A stretch of 64,000 nucleotides of DNA from Planctomycetia bacterium (lineage in GTDB: Bacteria; Planctomycetota; Phycisphaerae; Phycisphaerales; SM1A02). The DNA lies in NCBI GenBank assembly GCA_005790605.1, contig SXUI01000003.1:1-64000 (forward strand), given 5' to 3'. Below, piece after piece: positions 34,322-49,551 of this stretch. Position 1 is the first letter of the stretch, and the number at the start of each line of letters is the position of its first letter. Position numbers and translations under genes: made by a program. Under the pieces are notes generated by a model. It made no database searches. It worked only from the letters and a program-made list of their open reading frames with translations, and had not been told where the DNA came from.

Positions 34322-35233
34322 ATGCGTCTCTTCTGCTGCGTCACGGCCTGCTTGCTTGCGTCCGCCTCCCAAGTCGCACGCGCGGACGATCCACCAGTTT
34401 CGCCGCCCGCGACGCTGCTCGCTGGTCCCGCTGCAGGCGAGATGCAACGGAGTGATCCCACGCTTCTCACGCTTGACTTCGACGGCCACCTTGAGCACAT
34501 CGTCGGAGAACCTGGATTTGAAGCGATGCGCCGGATTGGTCTCACGCCCGAGCAGCAGGCGGCGCTCTCGAAAGTAGACCAAGAACGAACCACGCAGTTC
34601 AACGCGATCGCGACGCGGGCGCTTCCACAGTTGATTGCCCTCGAGGGCATCGAAGCGAGATTGCAAGGGTCCTTCCGAACTCGCAGCGGGGCGCTCATTG
34701 ATTTGGCCCGCGCGTACCTCGCAACCCGCAAGATCGTGCACCGCGCCAGCGCGCTCGATGCTCTTGCAGCGACAGGCGCCTTTGACGCGTCGCAACTTGC
34801 CACTGCTCGCAGCATGGTCGCCGCATACGAGAAAGCGCTTCGCCTCGAGATCGCGAACGCCACACCAAACCTCTCGGAACAGGAACTAGAGCGACGCGCA
34901 CACATCGCGATGTTGCTCGAGCTCCTCCAAGAAGGCATCGCGACACGAGCGAAGGCAGGCGAAGAGGAGTTTGATCGGCTCAGCGAGGCCGTGCAACTCA
35001 CACCCGCGCAAGCGGAGCGCGTCAAATCGATCTTCGCTCCGATCGCGGTGCAGGAGTACCTTGGGAATCGAGTTGGACTTCTCGATCGAGTGCATGCCAT
35101 GCTTGAAGCGAGCCGCGAATTGACCGCGGTACAACGCGAACGCGCGTGGAAGTACATCAAGGACGAAGCTCGCGCGGTCGAGCCATCGCCGTCAGGGAAC
35201 CCCGCTCGGGGTTTGCCCACGTTGCGCGACTGA
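34322..35233 (+). CDS. Secreted helical protein of unknown function
   Basis: 303 residues with a short signal peptide (LFCCVTACLLASASQVARA). The mature part is almost wholly helical, with two similar segments, IGLTPEQQAALSKVDQERTT and VQLTPAQAERVKSIFAPIA. These resemble the LTxxQ motif of Spy/CpxP-like periplasmic proteins, but the match is loose. It starts 20 bp after the gamma-lyase gene. Its last 42 bp overlap the 3' end of the convergent gene at 35192. Confidence 0.75.
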   Translation: MRLFCCVTACLLASASQVARADDPPVSPPATLLAGPAAGEMQRSDPTLLTLDFDGHLEHIVGEPGFEAMRRIGLTPEQQAALSKVDQERTTQFNAIATRALPQLIALEGIEARLQGSFRTRSGALIDLARAYLATRKIVHRASALDALAATGAFDASQLATARSMVAAYEKALRLEIANATPNLSEQELERRAHIAMLLELLQEGIATRAKAGEEEFDRLSEAVQLTPAQAERVKSIFAPIAVQEYLGNRVGLLDRVHAMLEASRELTAVQRERAWKYIKDEARAVEPSPSGNPARGLPTLRD

Positions 35234-36043
35234 GGCATTCCAGCGACCATCGCGCCAAGTGGCTAATGTTGGATCCACTCGGAAGAGCGTCCCGAGGTTT
35301 GAAACATCAATCTCGATGAGAGGTGCCCCTTGTGTCACGGCGACATCGACGGACACCGCCCGTGGAGAAGGTGTAATGAGCGCCGCCTCAAGCAGCAACA
35401 TGCGACGGAGTGTTGCATTGTCGAGCGTCGGTCGAACACCGCCGCGTAGGGTTCGGCATTCACGCAAGAACCCCTCAGCTCCGCCGGGAATCATCGCGTC
35501 GTGTTCTTCAAGGAGCGGCTCGGCGTCAGCGGCGCGCAACGTGGCAAGAGCCTGCTGGCCCTTGCCAAGTCGATACAACGAAAGCGCGCGAACAAGAGCC
35601 AGTGATTTCGTCTCGTCGGCCGCGGCGGATGCGCGCTCATATCGCACGCCACCAAGAAGTGCTGCGGCGGCCTGCATTCGGCGAGCCTCGAGTGGCGTCG
35701 ATGCGATCGCTGCACGCGCGAGCGCGGCACTGCGACCGAGTCGGTCACGATCGAGGGCGCCTGCGAGTCCGAAGAGTTCACGCGCAAGCTGACGCTCCGC
35801 GTCCGTCGTCGCAGCGTCAACGACCTCCTCTCCGAGCAAGAAGTACTCCATCGGTCGAAGAGGATTCAACGCGATGAGTCGAGGCTCCCACTTCGCGGTC
35901 GGTCGTGCGGAAATCGGCGCGGGCGCGATCGGCGCGGTTTGACCGTACAGCGACGCTGACGCGAAGTGCAGGAAGCAGACCGCAGAGCCAACACACAACG
36001 GATTCGTCACGAACGGGCGTAGGTTGAACATCCTTCGACTCAT
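35192..36043 (-). CDS. Operon gene 8: secreted helical-repeat protein
   Basis: 283 residues with a probable signal peptide (PLCVGSAVCFLHFASASLYG) and a mature domain of TPR-like helices (SAALARAAIASTPLEARRMQ, ALVRALSLYRLGKGQQALATL in part). A C-terminal segment contains a beta-strand pattern (LIEIDVSNLGTLFRVDP). I recognise no family. The ATG at 36043 overlaps the stop of the 999-residue gene as ATGA. It is the last gene of the ExbBD/VWA operon and ends tail-to-tail over the neighbouring gene. Confidence 0.75.
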   Translation of the reverse strand: MSRRMFNLRPFVTNPLCVGSAVCFLHFASASLYGQTAPIAPAPISARPTAKWEPRLIALNPLRPMEYFLLGEEVVDAATTDAERQLARELFGLAGALDRDRLGRSAALARAAIASTPLEARRMQAAAALLGGVRYERASAAADETKSLALVRALSLYRLGKGQQALATLRAADAEPLLEEHDAMIPGGAEGFLRECRTLRGGVRPTLDNATLRRMLLLEAALITPSPRAVSVDVAVTQGAPLIEIDVSNLGTLFRVDPTLATWRDGRWNASVAQRGQTPSGVP

Positions 36044-39039
36044 GCTGCATCCTCTCGATCGACCGCTTCCGCTTCGACATTCACGATTGCCATTCGCGCG
36101 AAAGCGGTGAGCGTGACCGCAAGCTGCGCGGCTGCGCTCTGCGCGGTGCTGCGGGCAAGTGCCGCCTCGGTCAATATCTCTCGCGCTGCAGAGATGCATT
36201 GCGGACGCCGAGCGGCTTCGACCGCCGCAGCTTGCTCAAGCAAGGAGGCGGCGTCGGCAACCGCGCGTTGCATGGAGCCATCGGCCAGTCCGCGACGCGC
36301 AACTCGCAACCTCTCAAGTTCCTGACTTGATGCGGGGAACGGCTCGGAGAGGAACCGTTCCTCCGCCGCGACGCGAAGCGCGGACGCAAGCATCGCCATA
36401 GAAACATCGAGCGCTGGAGCGAAGTCGAAGGCGGCGGAGTTGGGGGCGTAACGCACAGTTAGATTGGTCGCGCTTGCGGCAACGCGCGCTGCAAGGCGAT
36501 CGATTGCAGCCTCTCGGCTCGCTTCGAGCGAGAGCACGCGATCGAGAAGTGCCGCGCGCGCGGGCACGGCCCAGTCTCGGCCTGTGAACTCCCGGTGGAG
36601 CAGCGCCGCGAGAAAACCTGCAAACTCCTCGCGCGGCTTCGACTCCGTCAACGCGTCGAGCACCGCGAGAAGCACAGTCCGCCCGTTCGCAAACTTGTCA
36701 GCAATCGCTCCCTGCGCTTCTCGGCGAATGTCTGCTGCGCCGCCTGCGAATGCCTCTCGCGCGAGCACTTCCGCATCGCGAGGACCAAGATCTCCCGTCG
36801 CTGGAAGTGCACGCAGCGCAGCAATGAGCCGAGCGCGTGACTCCATGTTCAAGCCAGGCTGCGTGAATTCGGTCGCCCAATCTCCATCATTCACGCCCGA
36901 CGGACGAAGTCCGCTCTCGCCCGCAAACGGCGCTTCCAGTGCACCGCGATCAAACTTCAGCGCGGTGCTCGCATCCTGCATGGCGACCTCAGCTTCTCTC
37001 GACTTTCCAGACTCAAGCAATCGCACGGCAAGCACGCATTGCAACGCACCATCCGCGATCGCAAGTGCCTCGACATCATCCTGCGGACGAACAGCGCGCG
37101 CTGCAAGCTCCGCGACTGTGTTGCGAAGGAGATCAAGCGTGCCGCGAGGAAACGCGAGCCTCTCCCCTTCTTCGCCTTCAACCGACTTCGGCCACGCGGC
37201 GAGAATGCGCTGGAGCGCAGCATCTCGTCGGTTCGCATTCGCGTCCACAGGCAGCACCATCTCCGGCGAAAACCAAGCGATGCGATGATGACGGTCAAGC
37301 ATGCTCGTCAAGACCCAAAGCCTCGTTGCGAGAATCGACGGGTTCGCAAACCACGAACCAAAGGCGGTGCGTGCTTGATCGCCTGAGACGCCGCGATTTG
37401 ACCAATCGATATCTGCGATGAGACGACCGAGCACATCGCTCGCTCCACTCTGCAAGTCGATTGGCGCAGCCCCTTGCAGAATCGCCTCGATTGCGCGAAG
37501 TCGCGCCGACTCCCCAAGCTTCACATTGGTCGCCGCGGCGTCGACTGCCTCGAACCATCGCGACCAATCATCAAGAGTAATGTTCGCGCTCCCCGCATCC
37601 GTCGCATCGGCGAATCCACTCGCGTCGCGCGTCAGACTCGCGATTGCCGTCACTCCGAATCGGTTGCTTCCAGCACCCGATGCGATCGCAATCCCCTCGC
37701 GGCGCAATGACTCGCGCGCGGCCACCGCGACTTCACCTGGCACTTCTGGATCACCGAGCAATTCGGCGGTCATCCCCGCTGCGAATGCGGCCTGCCACAC
37801 AACCTTCCAAGGAGTGACACTTGAGCCGCTCGTCGATTGCAGTGGAAGCCCGCGCAACGCGAGCAAGAGGGCGTGCGCGCTCTCGTCGCCGTGCGTCGCC
37901 CTTGCGACTTGGATCATGCCCGTGATGAACTCTGCGCGAAACGCGCCAGAAACCGCCCACGATTCACCTGCAAGTCGACAGCACTCGGCGAGATTCGATG
38001 CGTTCACTCCATCGAGCCGGCCGCGATTCGTTTTCAACTTCCGCGTGAGTTCATCGAGCGTCGTTAAGAAGTCTGGCCATTGATTCGCAAGCAAGAGCGT
38101 TGATGGCGGAGTTGCGCTTGACGCGAATCCCGGCGCACGCGCGTACTTCGCTGGAGACGCAAGCGCCTCAATATTCGTATCTGGTGGCGCAAACTTCTGC
38201 GCGAGTGCTGCAGCGGCCCGCTCACGCTGCGTCGATGCATCCTCGACCGCAATCGCGGGCAACGGAACGACATGAGTTTTTTCTGGGGGCTCCGCGCCGC
38301 GGACGATCATCCACACAATCGCGAGCGTGACGCTCACGGCGACGGTACCGAAGAACGCCGTCAACCGCAAAGCCGACCACGGCGAGTTCGCTCGCATTTC
38401 TTCGCCAATCGAGCTCGCGATGCGATCGACCGCAGCCTCAGCCACATTCGGCTTCTTCACGGGACGCGCGTGCAGTTGTTCCGCAGACACGCCGACGGAA
38501 GACAGATCTTTGCGAAGCACCGCGGCGCCGCCATCTCGCATGAACTTCGCGAGCCCAGCGACGACAAGTTGCAACCCCTCATTACTCACTCCATGTTCGG
38601 CGCTCAGTGCGGCTAACTGCGCGGCCGTCTTGGGGTTCCACCCTCCACCGGCAACCAAGATCGTCAACACGACGCGATCGAACTCCGTCAGATGTTCCTC
38701 GGTCACACCGCCCTTGGGGCGAATCGGTGGGTTCCCTTGCGACCCTTGCACTGATCGCTCCATGCGCTGCTTTGCAAGAGGATGCATCGGCATCGTGCGC
38801 GGTTCACGCACGAGTGAGATTTCAAGTTCAATCTCGCGCGCAAGCGCCTCGAGCTGCGCGATCGCGCGCGCGGCATCGGGAGAATCGCTCATCGGATGAC
38901 TTCGCACTTGTGCGATTCGCCGCGCGAGCGCCTCTTCAACGAGTCCACTGGTAAGCCCGTCAGCGCTCAGGCCAAGGATGCCTCGCGCGCTGCGGTCCTT
39001 GCCAATGGCAATGAATCGATCCATCGCCGAGAGGCTCAT
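36040..39039 (-). CDS. Operon gene 7: large single-span membrane protein
   Basis: 999 residues. Residues 1-222 are predicted cytoplasmic. One membrane helix follows at about 223-247 (LTAFFGTVAVSVTLAIVWMI). About 750 residues of periplasmic alpha-helical repeats, rich in Ala and Glu, make up the rest. Residues about 20-72 (ILGLSADGLTSGLVEEALARR, shortened to ILGLSADGLTSGLVEEA, then SHPMSDSPDAARAIAQLE) have the length and helix pattern of a J-domain, with HPM in place of HPD. That resemblance is only suggestive. The start at 39039 overlaps the previous stop as ATGA and has a GGAGG ribosome-binding site. Confidence 0.8.
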   Translation of the reverse strand: MSLSAMDRFIAIGKDRSARGILGLSADGLTSGLVEEALARRIAQVRSHPMSDSPDAARAIAQLEALAREIELEISLVREPRTMPMHPLAKQRMERSVQGSQGNPPIRPKGGVTEEHLTEFDRVVLTILVAGGGWNPKTAAQLAALSAEHGVSNEGLQLVVAGLAKFMRDGGAAVLRKDLSSVGVSAEQLHARPVKKPNVAEAAVDRIASSIGEEMRANSPWSALRLTAFFGTVAVSVTLAIVWMIVRGAEPPEKTHVVPLPAIAVEDASTQRERAAAALAQKFAPPDTNIEALASPAKYARAPGFASSATPPSTLLLANQWPDFLTTLDELTRKLKTNRGRLDGVNASNLAECCRLAGESWAVSGAFRAEFITGMIQVARATHGDESAHALLLALRGLPLQSTSGSSVTPWKVVWQAAFAAGMTAELLGDPEVPGEVAVAARESLRREGIAIASGAGSNRFGVTAIASLTRDASGFADATDAGSANITLDDWSRWFEAVDAAATNVKLGESARLRAIEAILQGAAPIDLQSGASDVLGRLIADIDWSNRGVSGDQARTAFGSWFANPSILATRLWVLTSMLDRHHRIAWFSPEMVLPVDANANRRDAALQRILAAWPKSVEGEEGERLAFPRGTLDLLRNTVAELAARAVRPQDDVEALAIADGALQCVLAVRLLESGKSREAEVAMQDASTALKFDRGALEAPFAGESGLRPSGVNDGDWATEFTQPGLNMESRARLIAALRALPATGDLGPRDAEVLAREAFAGGAADIRREAQGAIADKFANGRTVLLAVLDALTESKPREEFAGFLAALLHREFTGRDWAVPARAALLDRVLSLEASREAAIDRLAARVAASATNLTVRYAPNSAAFDFAPALDVSMAMLASALRVAAEERFLSEPFPASSQELERLRVARRGLADGSMQRAVADAASLLEQAAAVEAARRPQCISAAREILTEAALARSTAQSAAAQLAVTLTAFARMAIVNVEAEAVDREDAA

Positions 39040-41714
39040 GGCGCGCCTCCAGTCTGTGGCGCTTGTTTGCTGCGCGCTTCCGTTTCTAATGCTTCGAACT
39101 TCGCCTTCCACTCGCCTGGCCCAAGGTCTGGGTGCAGCTTGCGATGCTGCTCGAGCACCGCGATGCTCCGAGCGGCGTCGATGCGAAGGAGGACGCGAGC
39201 AAGATCATATTTCGCGCGAAACCATGGGTCGGTTCGCGTTGGGACTCCTGACACAAGCGCCTTGAGTTGCTCGACGGCGACTTCGAGTTGGCCACAAGAC
39301 TCCGCGAAGAATGCGGCGTTCTGAAGCACCCCTGCTTCGCGCGTTCCAGCGGCGAGCACTGCTTGCGCGATCAACAGTCCTTGCTTGGCTTCATCCGGTG
39401 ACGCACTCGCGAGCACCAGTTCCTTTCGCGCGTCAAGCAGCGTCCGAAGCACGGCCATGTGTGATGCAGACTTGACTGCTTTCTCCACGCCACCTTCACG
39501 CGCGATAAGCGCATCGCCTGCGCGAACGCTCGTCGCAACAAACGCACTGCGCCGTGGGTCATCCTTCGCAGTCGCGCGTCGAGCGAGTTCCGCTCCACGC
39601 AGTGCCAATCGAAGCGCTGCATCGGCCCAAATCGGAGTCGCTTGAGGCGACTCAAACTGGGCAAGACCACTCTCCACAAGTTCCCATTGGTTCTGCGAGA
39701 TCGCGAGCTGCAGTCGCCGATACGCCAGTTCTTCGCGAGCTTCTGAGAGTTCAAACTCCCCGCGCGTCACTGCGGCATCAATCGCGACGAGCAGTTGTGC
39801 CGCGAAAGAGGTATCTGCCACTTCTGGCGCGAGAGCAACTTCAAGCGCCTGACGCGCGATACCAACGCTGCCTGCAGGAAGTCCTGGAGCGGAAGGGACA
39901 TCTCGAAGCGTCAACAGTACGCCGATGTATCGCCGTCCAAGTGTTGTTCGCTCCGCGACATCACGGGAGGCGCGGAAGCAACGGTAGAGTCCGCCAATCG
40001 CGGCGCGGCGTGAAGTATCAAACGATGGTTCGGTGCTTGGCACCGACAACAACTTCTCGATGTCTGCTGCATCCGGAAGCGGATCTGCTTGGACGCGACG
40101 CACGAAGAGTTCAATCACACGCATCGATGCTGGGAATCGACGGAGAAATGCATCGCTGCGCGCGGTCAACTGCGCTTCGAGCGCGGTGCGCTCCGAACCT
40201 TGCAGCGTGCGCGCCAACGCATCGAGACACGCGATCGCTGCCCACGCCGCATCTTCGCCCCGTTCTCCGGTCAACACGCTCGCGAGTTGATCGAACGCTT
40301 CCGCGGCGTCGCGATACTCGTGCGCGCCTCGAAGACAATGCGCACGCATGAGCCGACAACCATCGCGCGCATCGGGGTACGCATCGGCGTCGGTCGCAGC
40401 GAGCGCGGCGTCGAGCCCCTGCAGTGCTTCGCGATTTGCGCGCATCGCATGCTCGGTCATCGCGGTATCAATGCTCGCCCCGTCGGCACGCGCGTTCTCT
40501 TCTGCAGCCTGCAACGTCTCATCAGCAACCCGCGCCGCGTCGTAGCGCGCGAGCGACGCCACATAACGGGCGACGAAGGTGTCTCCTTCAAGTCCGCGAC
40601 CGCCGAACTGATCGACGATGTCGCGAACCTGCGCGAGTTCCCGCCGCGTCGCGAGCTGCGCGATTGCATCTTGTGCGAGAGCGAGCGCCTCCCCGCCGTC
40701 GGTGCCTTGTGTCACCGCCCGAAGCCCACCTGCGGCTGCAACTCTGAACCACGCCGTTTCAACTGTGCTCTGCGCCGCGAGCGCGCGGAGGAGCTTCTTT
40801 GCCGCGGTCCAATCCTTCGCGCGAATCGCCGCTGCCAAACGCCATCCATCGAGTCGTGTACGAATTCCTTCGAAGGCAGAAGAGACTTCAAGCAATTGCA
40901 GCCATCGCGACGCCTCGCCATACCCTTGCGTTTCAGCCTTCGCCAACCCAAGTCCTAAGATCGCTGACGCAAATGCCTCCTCGGTTCTGAGGTCGAGGGA
41001 AACCTCCGCTGGATCCATATGACCGTTCCGCGCGCCGGCGATATCGAGGAAGAGTTGCGCCGCGGCCCCGGAATCCTCGACGGACTCGCTCAAGAGCCCC
41101 TTGTAAAGCAAACCCCACGCTCGCAAGAATCGGCACTCCGTCGCAATCGCTTCTGCACGCTGAATGTCCGCTCGCGCGAGATCTTGGGTGAGCCCGACGA
41201 GCGAATCGATGCGGCGGTCGAGGTCCTGCGCGCGCTTCAACGATTGCGCTTGCAGCTGCTCCAATGCTGGAAGCACGACGCCGAGTTCTGCGAGCGCTCG
41301 CGCGTTCGCCTCGCTCGGCACACGAACCGCCGCTCGCGTGTCTTCTGCGATTTCCGCGGCCACTCGGTATCGCGCTCGCGAGATCGCAAGACCAAGCACA
41401 TCAGCAGCGAATCCCGCGCTCTCAGTCAACGCTCGCTCGGCTCGTTCAAGGAGCGCGTCGCGCTCAACACCGCGCGCGGAAAGATCAAGCAACCGCGCGT
41501 ACGTCGTCGCGAGTCGCTCCCGCACGCGCTTGAGTTCATCACCATTCGAGTCTCGTGCGACAAGTTCAAGCCTTGTGGCGAGAAGCCCGTCAAGTCCACG
41601 CGCCTCGAGCCAATCCGCGAGTTCATCCGCGCGCACGGGTGATGCGCAAAGTCCAACCACAACGCCAGCAAGGGCGAAGGAGTGTCGAAGCATTGCGCGC
41701 GGATGAAAGTACAT
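39036..41714 (-). CDS. Operon gene 6: large secreted TPR-like protein
   Basis: 892 residues. A signal peptide (LAGVVVGLCASPVRA) precedes an almost continuous array of helical hairpins, for example YRDAAEAFDQLASVL, GYGEASRWLQLLEVS and CGQLEVAVEQLKALV. Spacing is TPR-like but irregular. No catalytic motif is seen. It should lie in the periplasm and could be a scaffold for the machine. It starts 10 bp after the second exbD and overlaps gene 7 as ATGA. An alternative ATG at 41693 would shorten the N-terminus by 7 residues. Confidence 0.82.
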   Translation of the reverse strand: MYFHPRAMLRHSFALAGVVVGLCASPVRADELADWLEARGLDGLLATRLELVARDSNGDELKRVRERLATTYARLLDLSARGVERDALLERAERALTESAGFAADVLGLAISRARYRVAAEIAEDTRAAVRVPSEANARALAELGVVLPALEQLQAQSLKRAQDLDRRIDSLVGLTQDLARADIQRAEAIATECRFLRAWGLLYKGLLSESVEDSGAAAQLFLDIAGARNGHMDPAEVSLDLRTEEAFASAILGLGLAKAETQGYGEASRWLQLLEVSSAFEGIRTRLDGWRLAAAIRAKDWTAAKKLLRALAAQSTVETAWFRVAAAGGLRAVTQGTDGGEALALAQDAIAQLATRRELAQVRDIVDQFGGRGLEGDTFVARYVASLARYDAARVADETLQAAEENARADGASIDTAMTEHAMRANREALQGLDAALAATDADAYPDARDGCRLMRAHCLRGAHEYRDAAEAFDQLASVLTGERGEDAAWAAIACLDALARTLQGSERTALEAQLTARSDAFLRRFPASMRVIELFVRRVQADPLPDAADIEKLLSVPSTEPSFDTSRRAAIGGLYRCFRASRDVAERTTLGRRYIGVLLTLRDVPSAPGLPAGSVGIARQALEVALAPEVADTSFAAQLLVAIDAAVTRGEFELSEAREELAYRRLQLAISQNQWELVESGLAQFESPQATPIWADAALRLALRGAELARRATAKDDPRRSAFVATSVRAGDALIAREGGVEKAVKSASHMAVLRTLLDARKELVLASASPDEAKQGLLIAQAVLAAGTREAGVLQNAAFFAESCGQLEVAVEQLKALVSGVPTRTDPWFRAKYDLARVLLRIDAARSIAVLEQHRKLHPDLGPGEWKAKFEALETEARSKQAPQTGGAP

Positions 41715-41724
41715 CAGGTGTTAC

Positions 41725-42138
41725 TCACCGAAACGGAACATAGGTGACACTCTTGTAACCAGCGTCATGGGCAGCTTGCATCGCTGCAGCTGCAAACCCG
41801 AAGTCAACGCCATCCCGAACTCGCACGAAAAGACTGTCCTCTGGGTTCAATGCACGAAGGGCTTCGGTGAGCGAAGATTTGTCTGCGTAGGTCGCTCCGC
41901 CGACGCGGTACAGGCGCACGCCGCCCTCTTCGAGCACATCCACATTCTGAGGTTCGAGATCGGTGCGCTTGTCGCTTCCTCGTTGCGTGGCCAGTTGTGG
42001 ATCGAGTTGCGCTTCACGCGACGCAGCCGACTGCGTAAACAGGAAGTAGCCAAGCAAGAGAAATGTTGCGTCGATCATCGCCGCGAGATTGATCTCTGGC
42101 TTTCGGTCGCGTTCACTTCCTGCTCGTCGGAATCTCAT
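41725..42138 (-). CDS. Operon gene 5: ExbD/TolR-family protein (second copy)
   Basis: 137 residues. After a short basic cytoplasmic tail, one membrane helix (INLAAMIDATFLLLGYFLF) carries the aspartate used for proton conduction by the family (in MIDATF). A periplasmic domain of about 95 residues follows, ending KSVTYVPFR. Compared with the first copy, the TP before the helix is replaced by AA and Gly-Tyr follow the core. The ATG overlaps the stop of the first exbD as ATGA. It should form the stator core with ExbB. Confidence 0.9.
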   Translation of the reverse strand: MRFRRAGSERDRKPEINLAAMIDATFLLLGYFLFTQSAASREAQLDPQLATQRGSDKRTDLEPQNVDVLEEGGVRLYRVGGATYADKSSLTEALRALNPEDSLFVRVRDGVDFGFAAAAMQAAHDAGYKSVTYVPFR

Positions 42139-42563
42139 TTCGAGGCTCCCTCCGTCGCAACTCGGACCGCCACCACGCCAGCCTGCGAGAGACGCTCAAG
42201 GACACCATTGAGGACATCGGTTCGAGCAGCGCGGTCGGCCCGCACGAGCGGTCGTAACTTCGTCACGCCACCTTCGTTCTGCGCAGCTGCTTCGGCGACG
42301 AGTTCGCCAATGCGATCGAGTGAAACCGCCTGCTCATTCACAATGATGCTTCCGTCGGCGAGCACATTGAGGACCACACCCGCCTGCTCTGCGGTCTTCA
42401 CTTCTTGACCCGGTTCCTTCGGCAACGCCATTTCTGTTCGCGCCTGCTGCGCCGCTTGTCCGGTGACGAGGAAGAAGATGAGCAATTGAAACACAATGTC
42501 GATCAGCGGCGTCATGTCGACGACGGCGGCGCGGGAAGAGCTATTGCGGGGAGCGAATCGCAT
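42135..42563 (-). CDS. Operon gene 4: ExbD/TolR-family protein (first copy)
   Basis: 142 residues. The N-terminal tail MRFAPRNSSSRAAV leads to the canonical ExbD helix VDMTPLIDIVFQLLIFFLV with the proton-carrying Asp in LIDIVF. The periplasmic domain has the ALPKE and VVLNVLADGSIIVN pattern of TolR/ExbD. The start at 42563 gives a family-length protein; the open frame continues upstream but into exbB. It lies 25 bp after the exbB stop, the largest gap in the operon. Confidence 0.93.
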   Translation of the reverse strand: MRFAPRNSSSRAAVVDMTPLIDIVFQLLIFFLVTGQAAQQARTEMALPKEPGQEVKTAEQAGVVLNVLADGSIIVNEQAVSLDRIGELVAEAAAQNEGGVTKLRPLVRADRAARTDVLNGVLERLSQAGVVAVRVATEGASK

Positions 42564-42588
42564 ACTGGAATGACTACAAACTTCGCGG

Positions 42589-43302
42589 TTATGCGCGCGC
42601 GACCTTCGTCTTGCTACTGCTCTCGATAATGGCAACCACTTCTTCCATCTCCGCGGCGGCGTCGCCTGCGAGACGATCCACGCGATTGCGGAAGAAGCTG
42701 TAGAGCGACACGCACGGGATGGCAACGACAAGACCTTGGAAGGTCGTGATGAGCGCGATCGCGATGTTGTAGGCCAGCGCCTCGTAGTAGGTGGAATCAT
42801 GGGCCGCGCTCGACGCGACCGTTTCAAACGCGCCGATCATGCCCTGAACCGTTCCAAGAAGTCCGAGCAGAGGTCCGACCGAACCAATGACGCCGATCAC
42901 ATCCATGGTGCGGTAGAGCCGCGCGGTCTGCTCAACCCCACTCTCCTCAAGAGCGCTCTTCATTTCAAACGCGCCGAAGGGCGAAGCGATGAATCGCTTG
43001 AGACCCGGCGCAAGCGTCCGCAGGAAGTAACAGTCGTTCGCCGGCAGTTGCGCATACTGCAACGCCTGCTCGAACTGTCCGCGAGCAAGCAGTTCTTTCA
43101 CTGCATTGATTCGATCTCGCGGGAGCTGGACACTCGCTCGGATCTGCACAAAGTGAATGATCACGAATGCGAGAGCCACGATCGACAACAGCACGATGAT
43201 GTAGCCAATCACACCGCCGCCCGTGATGAACTTGAGGGCAGAACTGCCCGTGCTCGTTGGACTCGCGGTATCAGCGGCTGCTTGAAGAAGAAGGTGCGTC
43301 AT
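42589..43302 (-). CDS. Operon gene 3: MotA/TolQ/ExbB-family proton channel protein
   Basis: 237 residues with three membrane helices at about residues 32-56 (GYIIVLLSIVALAFVIIHF), 138-160 (IGSVGPLLGLLGTVQGMIGA) and 185-205 (ALITTFQGLVVAIPCVSLY). The family signature GPLLGLLGTVQGMI is complete. A cytoplasmic loop between helices 1 and 2 has the usual length. It would form a pentameric channel around ExbD dimers and use the proton-motive force. The start overlaps the previous stop as ATGA. Confidence 0.94.
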   Translation of the reverse strand: MTHLLLQAAADTASPTSTGSSALKFITGGGVIGYIIVLLSIVALAFVIIHFVQIRASVQLPRDRINAVKELLARGQFEQALQYAQLPANDCYFLRTLAPGLKRFIASPFGAFEMKSALEESGVEQTARLYRTMDVIGVIGSVGPLLGLLGTVQGMIGAFETVASSAAHDSTYYEALAYNIAIALITTFQGLVVAIPCVSLYSFFRNRVDRLAGDAAAEMEEVVAIIESSSKTKVARA

Positions 43303-44519
43303 GGAGTTTCGTTGCCTTTCAAATCTATCTCTGCGTCTCGCGTGGCAATCACGCGGGGCGCTGTATCTTTCATCGTTGTCTGCAGCGGCGTTCTCGCCGC
43401 ATCCGACTCAATCGCGTCAAGCGCATCGTCTTGCATCAATCGCTCAAGAAGCTGCGCACTCTTGACATCGCCCCGCGCGCGACACGCACTTGCGGCCTCT
43501 CGAAGTGCGAGTCGACCGAGCGCGGTCTCGCCTTCGATGACGGCGGCGCTGAGCAGTTCGAGCACGCCCATTTCCTGTGATTCGGCGGACGCGCTTCCAA
43601 CGAGCGCTCGACCGAGCACCATGGATTTCCACGCCAGCAGGAATCGAGGTGCTTCGCCTCCACCTGCGTTGCGCGCGAGCGCGAGGAATCCCTCGGCGAG
43701 TCTTGCGCGATCTCGGTCACTCTGTGCCAAGGCGAGTTCTTCGAGCGTCGCAAGCAACTGCTCCGCTACCGACGCGCCAGCGCGAGGCTCAACATGTTTG
43801 GGCGCGTTGCGCAGCAAACGCGCGAACCGCTCATCCATCGACGAACCTCCCGTCGAATGCCCCGCGCGGACTTCGAGGACCTGCGCGGCGCGCGCCGCAG
43901 TCTCCGAGGTCGCGAATGGCGTGATTTCACTTGAAAAGAGCGTTGCTGGATCAAGCATGGGTGGCAGCGAAGCGAAGACTGAGTCAGCAGGCGCGTGCTG
44001 CCCTGCCTTCATCGCAGCAACATGCATCCATGGTTCAAGCGCGCTCACCGAATCACCTCGCGCGAGCGCGCATCGCAGCAACCCTTCCGCGGTGATGTAC
44101 CCAAGGTCACACTGGGGATTACGCAGGGAACTCCACACTTCTCGCAAGAGCGGCTCCGCGAACTCGTAGTCTCCTCGCACGACACGCGTCCGCGCTCGCC
44201 AAAGTGTTTCGCCCAGCTGCAAACCAGCATCGATACCCGCAGGAACGGTCGAACCAGTCACTGCGCGCACTTCGTCCCACCGCGCAAACTGTTCGATTCC
44301 CCCGACTCCCTTCAACCGGATACCTGATTCTTCGACGCTTGCGCTTGCGGCCTCGAGTGTGCTCGCGCCACCTCGCAACTCAACCCGGACATCCGCGCGC
44401 GCTGCCGATACGCAAAAAACTCCCGGCAAGGCGAGAAAAACGAATGCAAGGCTGGTCGGACGATCTGGACGCATGGGCTGTGGAATCTGAAACATCATTC
44501 GTACTGCATGCTCGATCAT
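43299..44519 (-). CDS. Operon gene 2: secreted helical protein
   Basis: 406 residues with a signal peptide (SLAFVFLALPGVFCVSAARA). A small beta-rich N-terminal part (VRVELRGGASTLEAASASV) resembles the start of planctomycete proteins whose genes sit beside ExbB. TPR-like helices follow (ETLWRARTRVVRGDYEFAE, LGRLALREAASACRARGDV). No enzyme motif is seen. It overlaps the VWA gene and exbB by ATGA at both ends, so it is tightly coupled and probably part of the same assembly. Confidence 0.78.
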   Translation of the reverse strand: MIEHAVRMMFQIPQPMRPDRPTSLAFVFLALPGVFCVSAARADVRVELRGGASTLEAASASVEESGIRLKGVGGIEQFARWDEVRAVTGSTVPAGIDAGLQLGETLWRARTRVVRGDYEFAEPLLREVWSSLRNPQCDLGYITAEGLLRCALARGDSVSALEPWMHVAAMKAGQHAPADSVFASLPPMLDPATLFSSEITPFATSETAARAAQVLEVRAGHSTGGSSMDERFARLLRNAPKHVEPRAGASVAEQLLATLEELALAQSDRDRARLAEGFLALARNAGGGEAPRFLLAWKSMVLGRALVGSASAESQEMGVLELLSAAVIEGETALGRLALREAASACRARGDVKSAQLLERLMQDDALDAIESDAARTPLQTTMKDTAPRVIATRDAEIDLKGNETP

Positions 44520-45556
44520 GGGGACGCGGGAATCGTGATGCGAACTCCACCGGTCACGGGGACGAACCGAAACACGCCCTCATTTTCACGCGCGATCTGT
44601 TCAAGTCCCGCGCGCCCCGCTTCCGAGCCGAAGCAGATGGTGTTGATGATCGACGCGCGACGCTGCTTGTGATTGAGTCGAGTCACTTCATCGGGACCCT
44701 CGCCGGGGATCTCACCATCAGTGAGGAAAAAGATGACATCCGGTGATGCGGGAAGTTCATACACGCGCTCGAAGGAAGTCATTGGATAGGTGCCTCCACC
44801 CGGGGATTGCTCCTCGATCCACTTCTTCATGCGCAAGATGTTCCCTTTCGATGCTCGGACCCAACTCTCCTCCCAGTCTGGGATTCGGCGGTCATCCGAA
44901 AAGAGCACCACATAGAAACTCGCGAAGTCAGGAAGCGCCGCGATCGAACGCTTCAACTCATTCATCGCGACCGTGAATCGATCATCCATCTGCATCGAAC
45001 CGGAAATGTCCACGATGAACGCGAATCGAGTGCCTCTTCCCCCCACTCCGAAGAAGCTCGTTCCTCCGCCACCGCGTCCAGAACCAATCCCGATCCCTTG
45101 TCCAGCGCCACCCGGCCCCACGATGCCTCCGGGCCCGGGCGCTTGCAACATGCCGAAACTGTTCTGCGTTGGATCATCGCTTGCGAGGTCTGCGCTGAGT
45201 GCCGGAATCTCATCGGGGTCCGGCATGATCTCGCCCGCCGCGAGCGGCGATGGATCTGGCAGTTCTACTTGCTCATCGGGAGCCACTTGCTCTTGCGCAT
45301 CGGCAAGATTGACTTCAACGGGCGCGTCATAACTTCGCGCGTCAACTGCCGGCTGGCGGTACCACCAGAGTGACAACATGACGGAGATGTGGACGACAAG
45401 CGAAAGCGCAAAGGCGAAGAGGAGGAGATGAACCCAGTACTCGCGGCTGTACCGCCGCTGATCCCCGAGCGCGCGAATGCCCTTTGCCAATGCGCGCCCC
45501 TGCTCCTTCACGGGAGCAGCAGCAAGATCGCGAGTTGGACTTGCCGGATTTTGCAT
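44516..45556 (-). CDS. Operon gene 1: VWA-domain protein with TonB-like membrane anchor
   Basis: 346 residues. A 40-residue cytoplasmic N-terminus precedes one membrane helix (about 43-65). The helix carries Ser52-x3-His56 (ALSLVVHISV), the SxxxH pattern that couples TonB to ExbB-ExbD. A VEVNLAD strand and an acidic Pro-rich stretch follow, as in TonB. A Gly-rich linker (138-175) leads to a von Willebrand A domain with a full MIDAS: Asp183-x-Ser185-x-Ser187 (DISGS), Thr256 and Asp280 (LTDGE). The usual TonB C-terminal domain is absent. I chose the ATG at 45556; the frame is open far upstream only as antisense of pyrH and frr. Confidence 0.9.
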   Translation of the reverse strand: MQNPASPTRDLAAAPVKEQGRALAKGIRALGDQRRYSREYWVHLLLFAFALSLVVHISVMLSLWWYRQPAVDARSYDAPVEVNLADAQEQVAPDEQVELPDPSPLAAGEIMPDPDEIPALSADLASDDPTQNSFGMLQAPGPGGIVGPGGAGQGIGIGSGRGGGGTSFFGVGGRGTRFAFIVDISGSMQMDDRFTVAMNELKRSIAALPDFASFYVVLFSDDRRIPDWEESWVRASKGNILRMKKWIEEQSPGGGTYPMTSFERVYELPASPDVIFFLTDGEIPGEGPDEVTRLNHKQRRASIINTICFGSEAGRAGLEQIARENEGVFRFVPVTGGVRITIPASP

Positions 45557-47160: not shown

Positions 47161-49551
47161 ATGGTGTCCGGAGTACCTATGTTGCACGAACTGACCCGAT
47201 CACTCAGCGCCCGCCACAGCACACTCTCGACGCACGTGCGCCACCGATCGCACGCCATCGGGCGGGCTTTCCGACTCGGTCTTTGGACCGTCGCCCTCGG
47301 GCTCGGTACATCGACAAGCTTTGCCCAAACCGCAGCCCCCAAGGGGATGCTGATCGAAGCGGACAACACTGTCATCTCGCAATCCTGCACCGCGACACCC
47401 ATCGTCGGAGTGCTCCTCGATGCGGATGGCAACGGCGTTGTGCACATTCAAGGCGACGCCGATGGCAAGCCCATCACTGTCGACTTCGGCGGCGGGCTTC
47501 TGCTTGGAAGCGCACTCTCCCCAGAGCGCCTCAGCGGTGTCGGCATCGTCGTCACCGGAAAGAATGTCACGCTCCGGAACGGGAAGGTGAAGGGATTCAA
47601 AGTCGGCATCCGCGGAGAGGGATGCGACGGACTTGTGCTCGAGGACTTCGATACCAGCGACAACTACGCGCAGCTCCTGCAATCCAAACCGTGGAAGGAA
47701 AACGGCGCCGACTGGCTCTTCCCTCATCAGAATGACGCCGGAGAGTGGGCGGGTTCGCACGGCGCAGGAGTTTCAATCTCCAACGCGAAGGGCGTGACGA
47801 TTCGGCGCGTCACGAGCCTCCGAACCCAAAACGGCGTGCTGTTGTCAGGCGTCAACGACTCGAAGATCTACGACAACGACTGCTCGTTTCTCTCAGGCTG
47901 GGGACTCGCCCTTTGGCGGTCGAATCGCAATGAGATCGCGCGCAACAACTTCGACTTCTGCATTCGCGGGTATTCGAATGGGGTCTACGCGCGCGGTCAA
48001 GATTCCGCGGGCATCCTGATGTTTGAGCAATGCTCAGACAATCTCATCGCGCTCAATAGTTGCACGCATTCCGGTGATGGCATCTTTGCCTTCGCCGGTC
48101 GCGAAGCACTCGGCGAGGCTCCGCCTCCCGCGTCTGCCCCTGGCGGAAGCGAACCGAGCGCGTGGTACCGTGGGCGTGGATGTAACAACAACCGGTTCAT
48201 TGGCAATGACCTTTCATTCTCCTCTGCGCATGGCCTTGAATTGACGTTCAGTTTCGGCAATCAAGTGCTTCGGAATCGCTTCGAGGGCAATGGTTTCTGC
48301 GGAGTTTGGGGCGGATACTCGCGCGATACCCTCATCGCCTCGAACACCTTTGAGGGCAACGGCGGCGCGGGTCACGGGCGTGAACGCGGCGGCATCGCGA
48401 TGGAGCACGCACAAGGAACGCGCATCGAAGACAACCAGTTCTCATTGCATCCGCAAGGCGTGGCGATTTGGATGGATGAGGATGCGTCACTCGCGAAGCT
48501 GCCTTGGAGCATCGCCAACGGGAGTGAAGCCAAGAACAATCGAATTCAATCGAACTCGTTCACCAAAGACGATGTCGCCATTGCGCTGATCGGAACGCAA
48601 GCAACTTCATTGGATCACAATCAATTCACGGAGTGCGCGACGGAACTTCTTGCCGAAGGCGCGACAGACACCAAGCAGTCCGATGAGGGGCACGCGTCAA
48701 GCGCGCCCACAGCCGAGTCCATCGAAACGCTGCTCGCGGCATTGCCCGGCACTCGAAAGGCAGTCGGCTTTCGCGATGCGCTACGCGGGCGCGATCGCAT
48801 CGTGATGCTCGAGCGTGGCCCATACGAATGGAATCGACCGATCATTGTGCGGCTCAATCAATCACAGAGCCGCGCACAGTATGGGTTACATGGATTCCCG
48901 AAGATGGTTGGCGCGGATGTCCTCGGTCGAGGACCCCTCTTCATTGGTATGGCGAGGGATGATCGAGGCGCTGAAGTTGCCGCGGATCCCGCAGGGTTCG
49001 TGACGCCATATCTCGTGCAGATTCGCGCAATCAACAAGGTCAAAGTGCGCTACCTCGACATTCTCGCACCTGCAGAGTGGCGTACTCGGTTCTTCGCCCT
49101 GCAAGGCCCCAACGGGACAGTCGATCCAACCAAGGATTCGGCAGGTTTTGACGCACTGGCCGCCGCTGGCGAACTGGAATTCGTTTTGCGGGAGCTCGCG
49201 TTTGAATACGGCGCCCGCGCTCCCCAGCAGACGGTGAATGATCCCGACGTCCAGAAGCTCACGCTCCCGAGCGATGGGTTTGGGATGGTTGCCGAGACGA
49301 CGCTGCACTTCATTCCCGGGAAGTACCGGATCCATCTTGAATCCTGCGATGCTGCGCGTGTTCGGTTCGATGGTCGGGTCGTGCTTGACCGATTCAATCG
49401 CGTCGGCGAAAGTGCGATCACCGACGACGCGTTCGCGTTCGAAATCACTGAGGAACGCGAAGTACCCATCAAAGTTGAGCACTTTGATAGCGCCGGTGAA
49501 GCACACCTACGAATCTACTTCGAAGCCATTGATCCGATCATCAAGGGATAG
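47161..49551 (+). CDS. Secreted right-handed beta-helix protein with PA14-like C-terminus
   Basis: 796 residues. A long signal peptide (n-region rich in His/Arg, core LGLWTVALGLGTSTSFA) precedes a parallel beta-helix at about residues 115-490. Repeated turns include NVTLRNGKVKGFKVGI, GVTIRRVTSLRTQNGVLLSG, DNDCSFLSGWGLALWRSNRNE in part, and GTRIEDNQFSLHPQGVAIW, like NosD/pectate-lyase-type folds. A region at about 690-796 (PGKYRIHLESCDAARVRFDG, RVVLDRFNRVG) looks like a PA14 carbohydrate-binding module. A polysaccharide-processing or -binding role outside the cell is likely. Catalytic residues cannot be assigned. Confidence 0.85.
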   Translation: MVSGVPMLHELTRSLSARHSTLSTHVRHRSHAIGRAFRLGLWTVALGLGTSTSFAQTAAPKGMLIEADNTVISQSCTATPIVGVLLDADGNGVVHIQGDADGKPITVDFGGGLLLGSALSPERLSGVGIVVTGKNVTLRNGKVKGFKVGIRGEGCDGLVLEDFDTSDNYAQLLQSKPWKENGADWLFPHQNDAGEWAGSHGAGVSISNAKGVTIRRVTSLRTQNGVLLSGVNDSKIYDNDCSFLSGWGLALWRSNRNEIARNNFDFCIRGYSNGVYARGQDSAGILMFEQCSDNLIALNSCTHSGDGIFAFAGREALGEAPPPASAPGGSEPSAWYRGRGCNNNRFIGNDLSFSSAHGLELTFSFGNQVLRNRFEGNGFCGVWGGYSRDTLIASNTFEGNGGAGHGRERGGIAMEHAQGTRIEDNQFSLHPQGVAIWMDEDASLAKLPWSIANGSEAKNNRIQSNSFTKDDVAIALIGTQATSLDHNQFTECATELLAEGATDTKQSDEGHASSAPTAESIETLLAALPGTRKAVGFRDALRGRDRIVMLERGPYEWNRPIIVRLNQSQSRAQYGLHGFPKMVGADVLGRGPLFIGMARDDRGAEVAADPAGFVTPYLVQIRAINKVKVRYLDILAPAEWRTRFFALQGPNGTVDPTKDSAGFDALAAAGELEFVLRELAFEYGARAPQQTVNDPDVQKLTLPSDGFGMVAETTLHFIPGKYRIHLESCDAARVRFDGRVVLDRFNRVGESAITDDAFAFEITEEREVPIKVEHFDSAGEAHLRIYFEAIDPIIKG

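Follow-up and report, generated by a model that had tools for sequence, protein, structure and literature searches.

The window, a stretch of 64,000 nucleotides from a planctomycete of the order Phycisphaerales, carries eight genes on its minus strand between positions 45556 and 35192 (Table 1). An open reading frame check confirmed these positions to the base: five junctions are four-base overlaps (44519/44516, 43302/43299, 42138/42135, 39039/39036 and 36043/36040), and the remaining two are gaps of 25 and 10 bases. The genes encode a VWA protein, an ExbB, two ExbDs and four large proteins (G2, G6, G7 and G8). The initial annotation had drawn the same frames and made the same assignments, and both stand: Pfam recognizes ExbB and the two ExbDs, and the VWA protein combines a match below the cut-off with the MIDAS residues. 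The four large window proteins matched no Pfam family. No receptor, transporter or outer-membrane barrel was recognized by Pfam among the eight proteins. The five flanking genes that were scanned encode a cystathionine beta-synthase-type protein, a cystathionine gamma-synthase-type protein, PyrH, Frr and a parallel beta-helix protein. A defense system was discarded after PADLOC gave zero matches for all eight proteins. Likewise, a MoxR-VWA or Bat identity was rejected, as domain scans of the eight found no MoxR AAA+ ATPase; the part of the MoxR-vWA literature consulted names no TolQ or ExbB in those systems (PMC7159879).

Table 1. Genes and features of the eight-gene cluster, in gene order
Feature	Position	Strand	Basis
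Candidate VWA force transducer (346 aa) with a membrane helix near its N-terminus, a linker rich in Gly and Pro, and a VWA head	44516..45556	-	Domain scans, conservation, hydropathy
VWA protein, predicted membrane helix, residues 44-62	45371..45427	-	Hydropathy
S-x3-H signature of TonB/TolA-type anchors, S52 and H56	45389..45403	-	S 37/38, H 38/38
VWA domain, residues 179-328; MIDAS D183, S185, S187, T256, D280	44573..45022	-	Pfam VWA, TIGR03788, conservation
G2, 406 aa, predicted secreted: small beta-barrel and TPR-like repeat array	43299..44519	-	AlphaFold2 model, fold lists
G2 modeled small beta-barrel, residues 44-89	44253..44390	-	AlphaFold2 model
G2 modeled TPR-like array, residues 96-375	43395..44234	-	AlphaFold2 model, fold search
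ExbB/TolQ-type proton-channel subunit, 237 aa; T151 and T187	42589..43302	-	Pfam 7.3e-25; both Thr 37/37
ExbD1, 142 aa; membrane-helix Asp22	42135..42563	-	Pfam 7.3e-21; Asp 37/37
ExbD2, 137 aa; membrane-helix Asp23	41725..42138	-	Pfam 4.2e-10; Asp 36/36
G6, 892 aa, putative periplasmic TPR scaffold	39036..41714	-	TPR-type Pfam in relatives; profile matches
G7, 999 aa: degenerate J-like domain, one membrane helix, putative periplasmic alpha-solenoid	36040..39039	-	Fold search, hydropathy, profile comparison
J-like domain of G7 (residues 17-76), with HPM in place of HPD	38812..38991	-	hhalign
G7 predicted membrane helix, residues 228-246	38302..38358	-	Hydropathy
G8, 283 aa, predicted secreted	35192..36043	-	Pfam scan, locus comparison

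A C-terminal vWA fold is predicted from sequence for the gene 1 protein. Its Pfam VWA match (5.3e-4, 20.7 bits) lies below the curated cut-off of 23.8, and TIGR03788 matches at 5.2e-6; the weak Pfam score is upheld because the D, S, S and D of the MIDAS are invariant in 38/38 VWA proteins. The linker is rich in Gly and Pro. In the membrane helix, the Ser (37/38 proteins) and the His (38/38), families f5 and f6 included, form an S-x3-H pattern that we take to be the TonB signature. Positions 63 and 67 are presumably the L and final S of the longer SHLS motif; L63 is present in 25/38 proteins, and the window protein has R67 where Ser is expected. A TonB model aligned with residues 47-121 (E 0.006), a weak match, with 1/35 members matching. 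In the published account, an S...H motif in the membrane helix is a feature of TonB/TolA-type anchors, and the L and last S of SHLS are present in "many" members (PMC12204202). Moreover, by sequence comparison, an E-x-A-x-L-type stretch is conserved past the helix, at the position of the published "motor box" (PMC12204202). Most likely, this protein transduces force in the manner of TonB and TolA, with the VWA domain as its head.

The large proteins had been read as TPR-like scaffolds of 283-999 residues, a description that suits G2 and G6, whereas G7 leans elsewhere and G8 is not so assigned. In the fold lists for the AlphaFold2 model of G2 (mean pLDDT 85.9), TPR chains rank first (best Z 12.4; best Foldseek E 0.0079). 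Helical repeats can reach such scores through their arrangement alone, and the modeled protein is best described as TPR-like. TPR-type Pfam families match part of the 30 G6 members, the window G6 itself being unmatched. Pfam scans of G2 and G7 members returned only single-member weak matches, and G8 members had no Pfam match at all. The N-terminus of G7 aligned with J-domains from seven genomes at an hhalign probability of 94.3, compared with 1.6 for the best of 100 column shuffles. Pfam DnaJ matched 2/17 G7 members (best 0.0027), and PDB DnaJ chains matched the J-like region at E 0.13-1, with other rows scoring better. The HPD motif reads HPM in the window protein and is kept in only 3/17 aligned members. 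An internal hydrophobic helix is found in 29/29 G7 relatives, and the J-like domain would lie on its cytosolic side. For the alpha-solenoid, "HEAT/ARM-like" is a lean only, because the best Z is 8.0 and no Foldseek E is below 0.001.

Mapping gene order in planctomycete genomes, a check proposed in the initial annotation, placed all eight parts in order at 28 of 39 chosen relative loci; at two of these, in two genomes, the G7 and G8 profiles fall on a single frame. Across the 121 genomes of the order, the G6 and G7 profiles each match in 74; the 73 genomes with both have them adjacent without exception (73/73). The cassette is not universal, since 47/121 genomes lack G6 at E 1e-20. The pyrH gene adjoins the VWA gene in 30/30 loci of families f1-f4, and because it too is kept, cassette order inside the Phycisphaerales order is partly vertical synteny. 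Two genomes outside the order (L163 and L164) retain the cassette, with G7 marginal in L163 (6e-3); the stretches examined around the two cassettes showed no pyrH. A phylum search with G6 matched 96/294 genomes, mostly by short or generic TPR matches. Among 20 places examined from that search, 11 have ExbB/ExbD near the G6-like frame (L163, L164, L167, L168, L170, L171 and L173-L177, the G6 score of L174 being only 3e-4), and nine do not (L158-L162, L165, L166, L169 and L172). Scattered homologues with no shared neighborhood were not seen across the loci and genomes compared: the eight-gene arrangement is a conserved unit, far beyond chance.

Four loci (L062, L088, L096 and L100) have no ExbB/ExbD between G2 and G6 and still hold VWA, G2 and G6, together with G7 and G8 where the contig permits; this speaks against a motor-driven reading. 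One of these motor-less genomes has two other ExbB-ExbD-ExbD trios, which could serve as stator. Such loci, like the J-like domain of G7, would suit a periplasmic chaperone or quality-control assembly of VWA, TPR/HEAT scaffolds and J-like G7, with ExbBD only loosely connected. We consider this very unlikely: ExbB, ExbD1 and ExbD2 lie inside the unit at the 28 full loci, a non-energized chaperone would not need the S-x3-H that is so strictly kept in the VWA protein, and the HPD motif is lost in the window G7 and most aligned members.

On the basis of domain scans of the eight proteins and genome searches, a classical Tol, Ton or flagellar identity was rejected. The cluster shares with Tol-Pal an ExbB/TolQ and ExbD/TolR motor, a membrane-anchored periplasmic arm and a TPR partner, which in Tol-Pal is CpoB (PMC12204202). 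It differs in that a VWA head replaces the C-terminal domain of TolA, that its two ExbDs are unlike each other, and that TolB_N was found in 0/61 genomes, while three control genomes gave matches. With TonB-ExbB-ExbD it has the motor type and anchor signature in common, but its arm lacks a TonB_C domain and the unit lacks a receptor. The Myxococcus Agl-Glt gliding motor also includes a VWA protein, the adhesin CglB. CglB is an outer-membrane lipoprotein, whereas the VWA here is fused to a putative motor-binding anchor helix, TonB-like and presumably in the inner membrane. To our knowledge, gliding is not known in these bacteria, and no outer-membrane barrel is recognized in the unit. A surface-adhesion or gliding machine of the Agl-Glt kind is thus improbable, even though the stator make-up equals that of AglR-AglQ-AglS, one TolQ-like and two TolR-like subunits, with TPR partners as well (PMC3169522).

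The closest likeness is to a published proposal. Williams-Jones et al. (2025) described a vWA arm with one TolQ-like protein, two different TolR-like proteins and a TPR protein, gave no function, modeled the complex, and named planctomycetes among the hosts of vWA transducers (PMC12204202). Common to both are the S...H helix, the vWA head, the TPR gene and genes for one TolQ-like and two different TolR-like proteins; the Gly/Pro-rich linker here may correspond to the flexible linker of the published arms. Here the VWA gene is first and the TPR gene sixth, whereas in the published systems the TPR gene, tolQ and the two tolR genes often precede vWA, an order given as frequent rather than defining (PMC12204202). 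The published order occurs at L177, a family f5 locus of the same taxonomic order. The text of PMC12204202 consulted, figures and supplements aside, does not mention G2, G7 or G8, and the co-conservation of these three, in a setting without TolB_N, goes beyond the published core. The earlier statement that the whole set matches no named system therefore holds insofar as no tested Tol, Ton or gliding system fits, but its core had been published in 2025.

The window genome gave no TonB_C, TonB_2 or Plug match. Among the 61 genomes, TonB_C occurs in 27 and Plug in 28, so the VWA system does not depend on their being absent; 12 of the 28 G6-bearing genomes in this set lack both. This patchiness, together with the TonB-class VWA anchor, leaves room for another transducer in transport, such that the VWA arm would open a novel outer-membrane channel for a substrate. 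Such an importer or exporter seems unlikely, as the eight-gene unit holds no recognized receptor or transporter gene, the window genome has no TonB-dependent receptor plug, and the five scanned neighbors are of other kinds. A Tol-Pal-like job in outer-envelope maintenance or remodeling is favored because the cassette is present in genomes without detected TolB, TonB or TonB-dependent receptors; we propose it tentatively and give it less than an even chance. Planctomycetes have been reported to carry Tol-Pal in a largely reduced form (PMC8871954). It is more doubtful that, in Phycisphaerales and related planctomycetes, the eight-protein machine replaces Tol-Pal, providing outer-envelope attachment and constriction without TolB through a proton-driven VWA arm, with TPR and solenoid scaffolds that would span the inner membrane and periplasm.

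TonB and TolA were long the only known stator-driven force transducers. The present cluster is probably a proton-motive-force-driven envelope machine of that class with a VWA arm. ExbB, ExbD1 and ExbD2 would form its stator, presumably five ExbB around one ExbD1/ExbD2 pair, and proton flow through it would move the VWA protein, whose membrane helix may dock on ExbB via its S-x3-H face. The flexible Gly/Pro linker would bring the head into the periplasm, where its MIDAS could grip a partner, probably a scaffold from the same cluster, by a peptide or an acidic ligand. Candidate partners are TPR-like G2, TPR G6 and membrane-anchored G7 with G8, which might relay force to the wall or outer membrane. 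The dedicated energized machine with a VWA moving part suggested in the initial annotation gains from the S-x3-H anchor and the linkage, although its core was overtaken by the 2025 proposal. The VWA-headed transducer type now has a fixed partner set in one bacterial order, and with His56, ExbD Asp22/Asp23 and the MIDAS residues named, the system is testable. It bears on how the outer membrane is energized in planctomycetes, whose envelope and division are unusual.

The window genome holds a second VWA-ExbB-ExbD-ExbD unit (L155), which shares the VWA with S-x3-H, the ExbB and the two ExbDs. There the VWA gene directly adjoins ExbB, G2 is missing from that position, an 841-aa protein follows the ExbDs, and none of G6, G7 and G8 has a same-strand match beside the unit. 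In Rhodopirellula, exbB and exbD are reported to be induced by salt (PMC2754498). Besides the second VWA unit (C14), the further ExbB-family loci of the window genome are an ExbB alone (C48), with no ExbD in the frames listed around it, and a pair that we read from its sequence as MotA/MotB-like (C49).

The eight genes of the unit, with their overlaps and gaps, were borne out exactly as the initial annotation had described them when we returned to the window sequence. Read 5' to 3' on the minus strand, they are VWA, G2, ExbB, ExbD1, ExbD2, G6, G7, and G8. Pfam clearly identifies ExbB and both ExbD proteins and weakly identifies VWA; no Pfam family matched the window's G2, G6, G7, or G8. Genes pyrH and frr lie upstream of the unit and are divergent from it, and past its other end are a 303-aa frame and two genes of the cystathionine gamma-synthase and cystathionine beta-synthase types. 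Downstream of frr is a gene for a 796-aa protein of the parallel beta-helix type, with a para_beta_helix repeat match at 9e-12.

Coordinates of the features discussed
Feature	Location	Strand
Eight-gene unit	window 35192-45556	-
G7	window 36040-39039	-
Parallel beta-helix protein	window 47161-49551	+
Shorter second unit: VWA, ExbB, two ExbD, then an 841-aa protein	L155:8492-13791, G000 (window genome) contig C14	
ExbB-family gene, no ExbD among the frames listed around it	G000 contig C48 (L156)	
MotA/MotB-like pair, fourth MotA_ExbB locus of the window genome		
Extra ExbB-ExbD-ExbD trio	L041:3-1312, in the orientation of the profile map	

The eight-gene unit is real and conserved. A search with the VWA protein gave some match in 116 of 121 genomes, any VWA paralogue being counted. 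Forty regions were fetched by choice and mapped with profiles that combine the eight proteins with relatives of each, and 39 were tabulated (L074 was left out). In 26 of these, the eight genes are separate frames in order. Two more (L051 and L054) carry the G7 and G8 profiles on one continuous frame, with overlapping matches and hence no clean border, which suggests that the two proteins act together. One contig ends after G6 (L059), one locus lacks the three motor genes (L062), two have VWA alone (L056 and L069), and seven (L066-L068, L070-L073) have VWA, ExbB, and ExbD with no match to G2, G7, or G8. Profile mapping found a second VWA at L067, L068, and L073, and a weak G6 at L067. Two VWA genes precede the motor genes at L067, L068, L073, and L126; L067 and L068 also have a third ExbD-like gene.

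In a scan of named genomes, all eight parts were present in 20 of the 80 loci listed, out of 184 confirmed; 13 of the 20 are labeled Phycisphaerales, three Phycisphaerae or Phycisphaeraceae, and four less specifically. The printed ExbB/ExbD1 order of L086 is swapped as a result of stop-to-stop frame sorting. Since this set and the chosen set share contigs (e.g., L094 and G003:C126), their counts are not additive. Genome-wide profile searches of the 121 genomes of the order found G6 in 74 of them and G7 likewise in 74. In all 73 genomes with both, the G7 match is just 3' of G6 on the same strand, with gaps between matched stretches of -69 to 2064 bases. The cassette is not universal, as 47 of the 121 lack G6 at E 1e-20; among the 20 of these listed, four belong to family f1 and 16 to f5 or f6, and every genome positive for G6 or G7 falls in families f1 to f4.

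Gene order within f1 to f4 is in part plain vertical synteny, because pyrH is kept beside VWA in all 30 loci with the cassette or a remnant of it (L035-L055, L057-L065); pyrH was not found in the seven f5/f6 loci. The cassette is also present in two genomes elsewhere in the phylum (L163 and L164); their fetched stretches showed no pyrH, and G7 is weak in them (6e-3 and 3e-20, respectively). These two loci are stronger evidence of linkage than order within f1 to f4. At L041, pyrH separates the VWA gene from an extra motor trio upstream, placing two motors close together.

The eight-gene unit is probably an energised envelope machine. Its VWA protein has one membrane helix (residues 44-62). Of 38 proteins (the window and 37 loci), this helix carries S52 in 37 and H56 in all; L63 is kept in 25, and the last Ser of the SHLS motif is not found at its expected place. 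S-x3-H forms the heart of SHLS. According to the text of PMC12204202, that motif couples TonB and TolA to their motor, and section 7 places the motor-box strand after the helix, the location of a conserved E-x-A-x-L-type stretch here. The NCBIfam TonB model matches residues 47-121 of the window protein (E 0.006), but just one of 35 VWA members gives such a match. In the head, the MIDAS residues D183, S185, S187, and D280 are invariant (38/38), and T256 is present in 35 of 38. ExbB T151 and T187 are invariant (37/37), and so are the proton-binding Asp residues of the two unlike ExbD proteins (ExbD1 D22, 37/37; ExbD2 D23, 36/36), so that these likely form a heterodimer with two working sites.

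Against the energised reading, four loci (L062, L088, L096, and L100) have no ExbB, ExbD1, or ExbD2 between G2 and G6 and retain everything else that their contigs are long enough to show. The L062 cassette could possibly use a borrowed stator, since its genome (G090) has two further ExbB-ExbD-ExbD trios, neither of which has a VWA detected next to it.

For an energised envelope machine, a Tol-like role is our leading guess. We surveyed the window genome and 60 relatives with the TolB_N, TonB_C, TonB_2, and Plug profiles. TolB_N was found in none of the 61, TonB_C in 27, TonB_2 in eight, and Plug in 28. In the window genome (80 contigs, 99.0% complete), profile search picked up none of the four, so that the unit stands there with no detectable Tol or Ton partner. 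A miss in a profile search does not prove absence, but the result speaks more for a housekeeping role in the envelope than for receptor-driven uptake; that about half of the 61 have TonB_C or Plug counts against this. Neither of those two occurs in 12 of the 28 G6-bearing genomes within the survey (G000, G004, G008, G009, G018, G021, G035, G073, G078, G082, G086, and G094, the last with a sub-threshold TonB_2 match). Tol-Pal is described as largely reduced in Planctomycetes in the text of a 2022 paper (PMC8871954).

The window genome has four MotA_ExbB loci, one being the eight-gene unit. In the second VWA unit, the VWA protein also has S-x3-H, and its gene is not separated from ExbB by a G2. 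The C48 ExbB-family gene adjoins a frame that reads as TraB/GumN-like from its sequence.

In Agl-Glt, the VWA protein and anchor are unlike those of the planctomycete unit. Shared features, from the text of PMC3169522, are the one-plus-two stator and TPR proteins. The counterpart of the unit's core is the vWA force-transducer family proposed in 2025 by Williams-Jones et al., whose text states it to be without known function (PMC12204202). Common to both are a vWA arm with an S...H helix, a TolQ-like protein, two unlike TolR-like proteins, and TPR; the unit works like these proposed transducers and, by its core, belongs among them. It is a variant: its gene order departs from what that text describes, and G2, G7, and G8 are co-conserved with it as three additional proteins, of which we found no mention there, figures and supplements aside.

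The G2 model (mean pLDDT 85.9) has a small beta-barrel (44-89) and a TPR-like array (96-375). For G6, each TPR-type Pfam family matches at most 7 of 30 members, the window protein not among them. G8 is presumably secreted, judging by its N-terminus; the Pfam scan found no family for its members, and 15 columns are invariant among 17 sequences. G7 has a membrane helix inside the chain, a feature shared by 29/29 relatives; the helix is followed by a predicted helical solenoid of ~730 residues (mean pLDDT 78.7, pTM 0.45) with weak HEAT/ARM-type matches in a fold search. Preceding the helix is an N-terminal J-like domain, in which HPD is kept in three of 17 members and reads HPM in the window. Aligned with J-domains of the window's own genome and six related ones, it gave an hhalign probability of 94.3, against ≤1.6 in 100 column shuffles.
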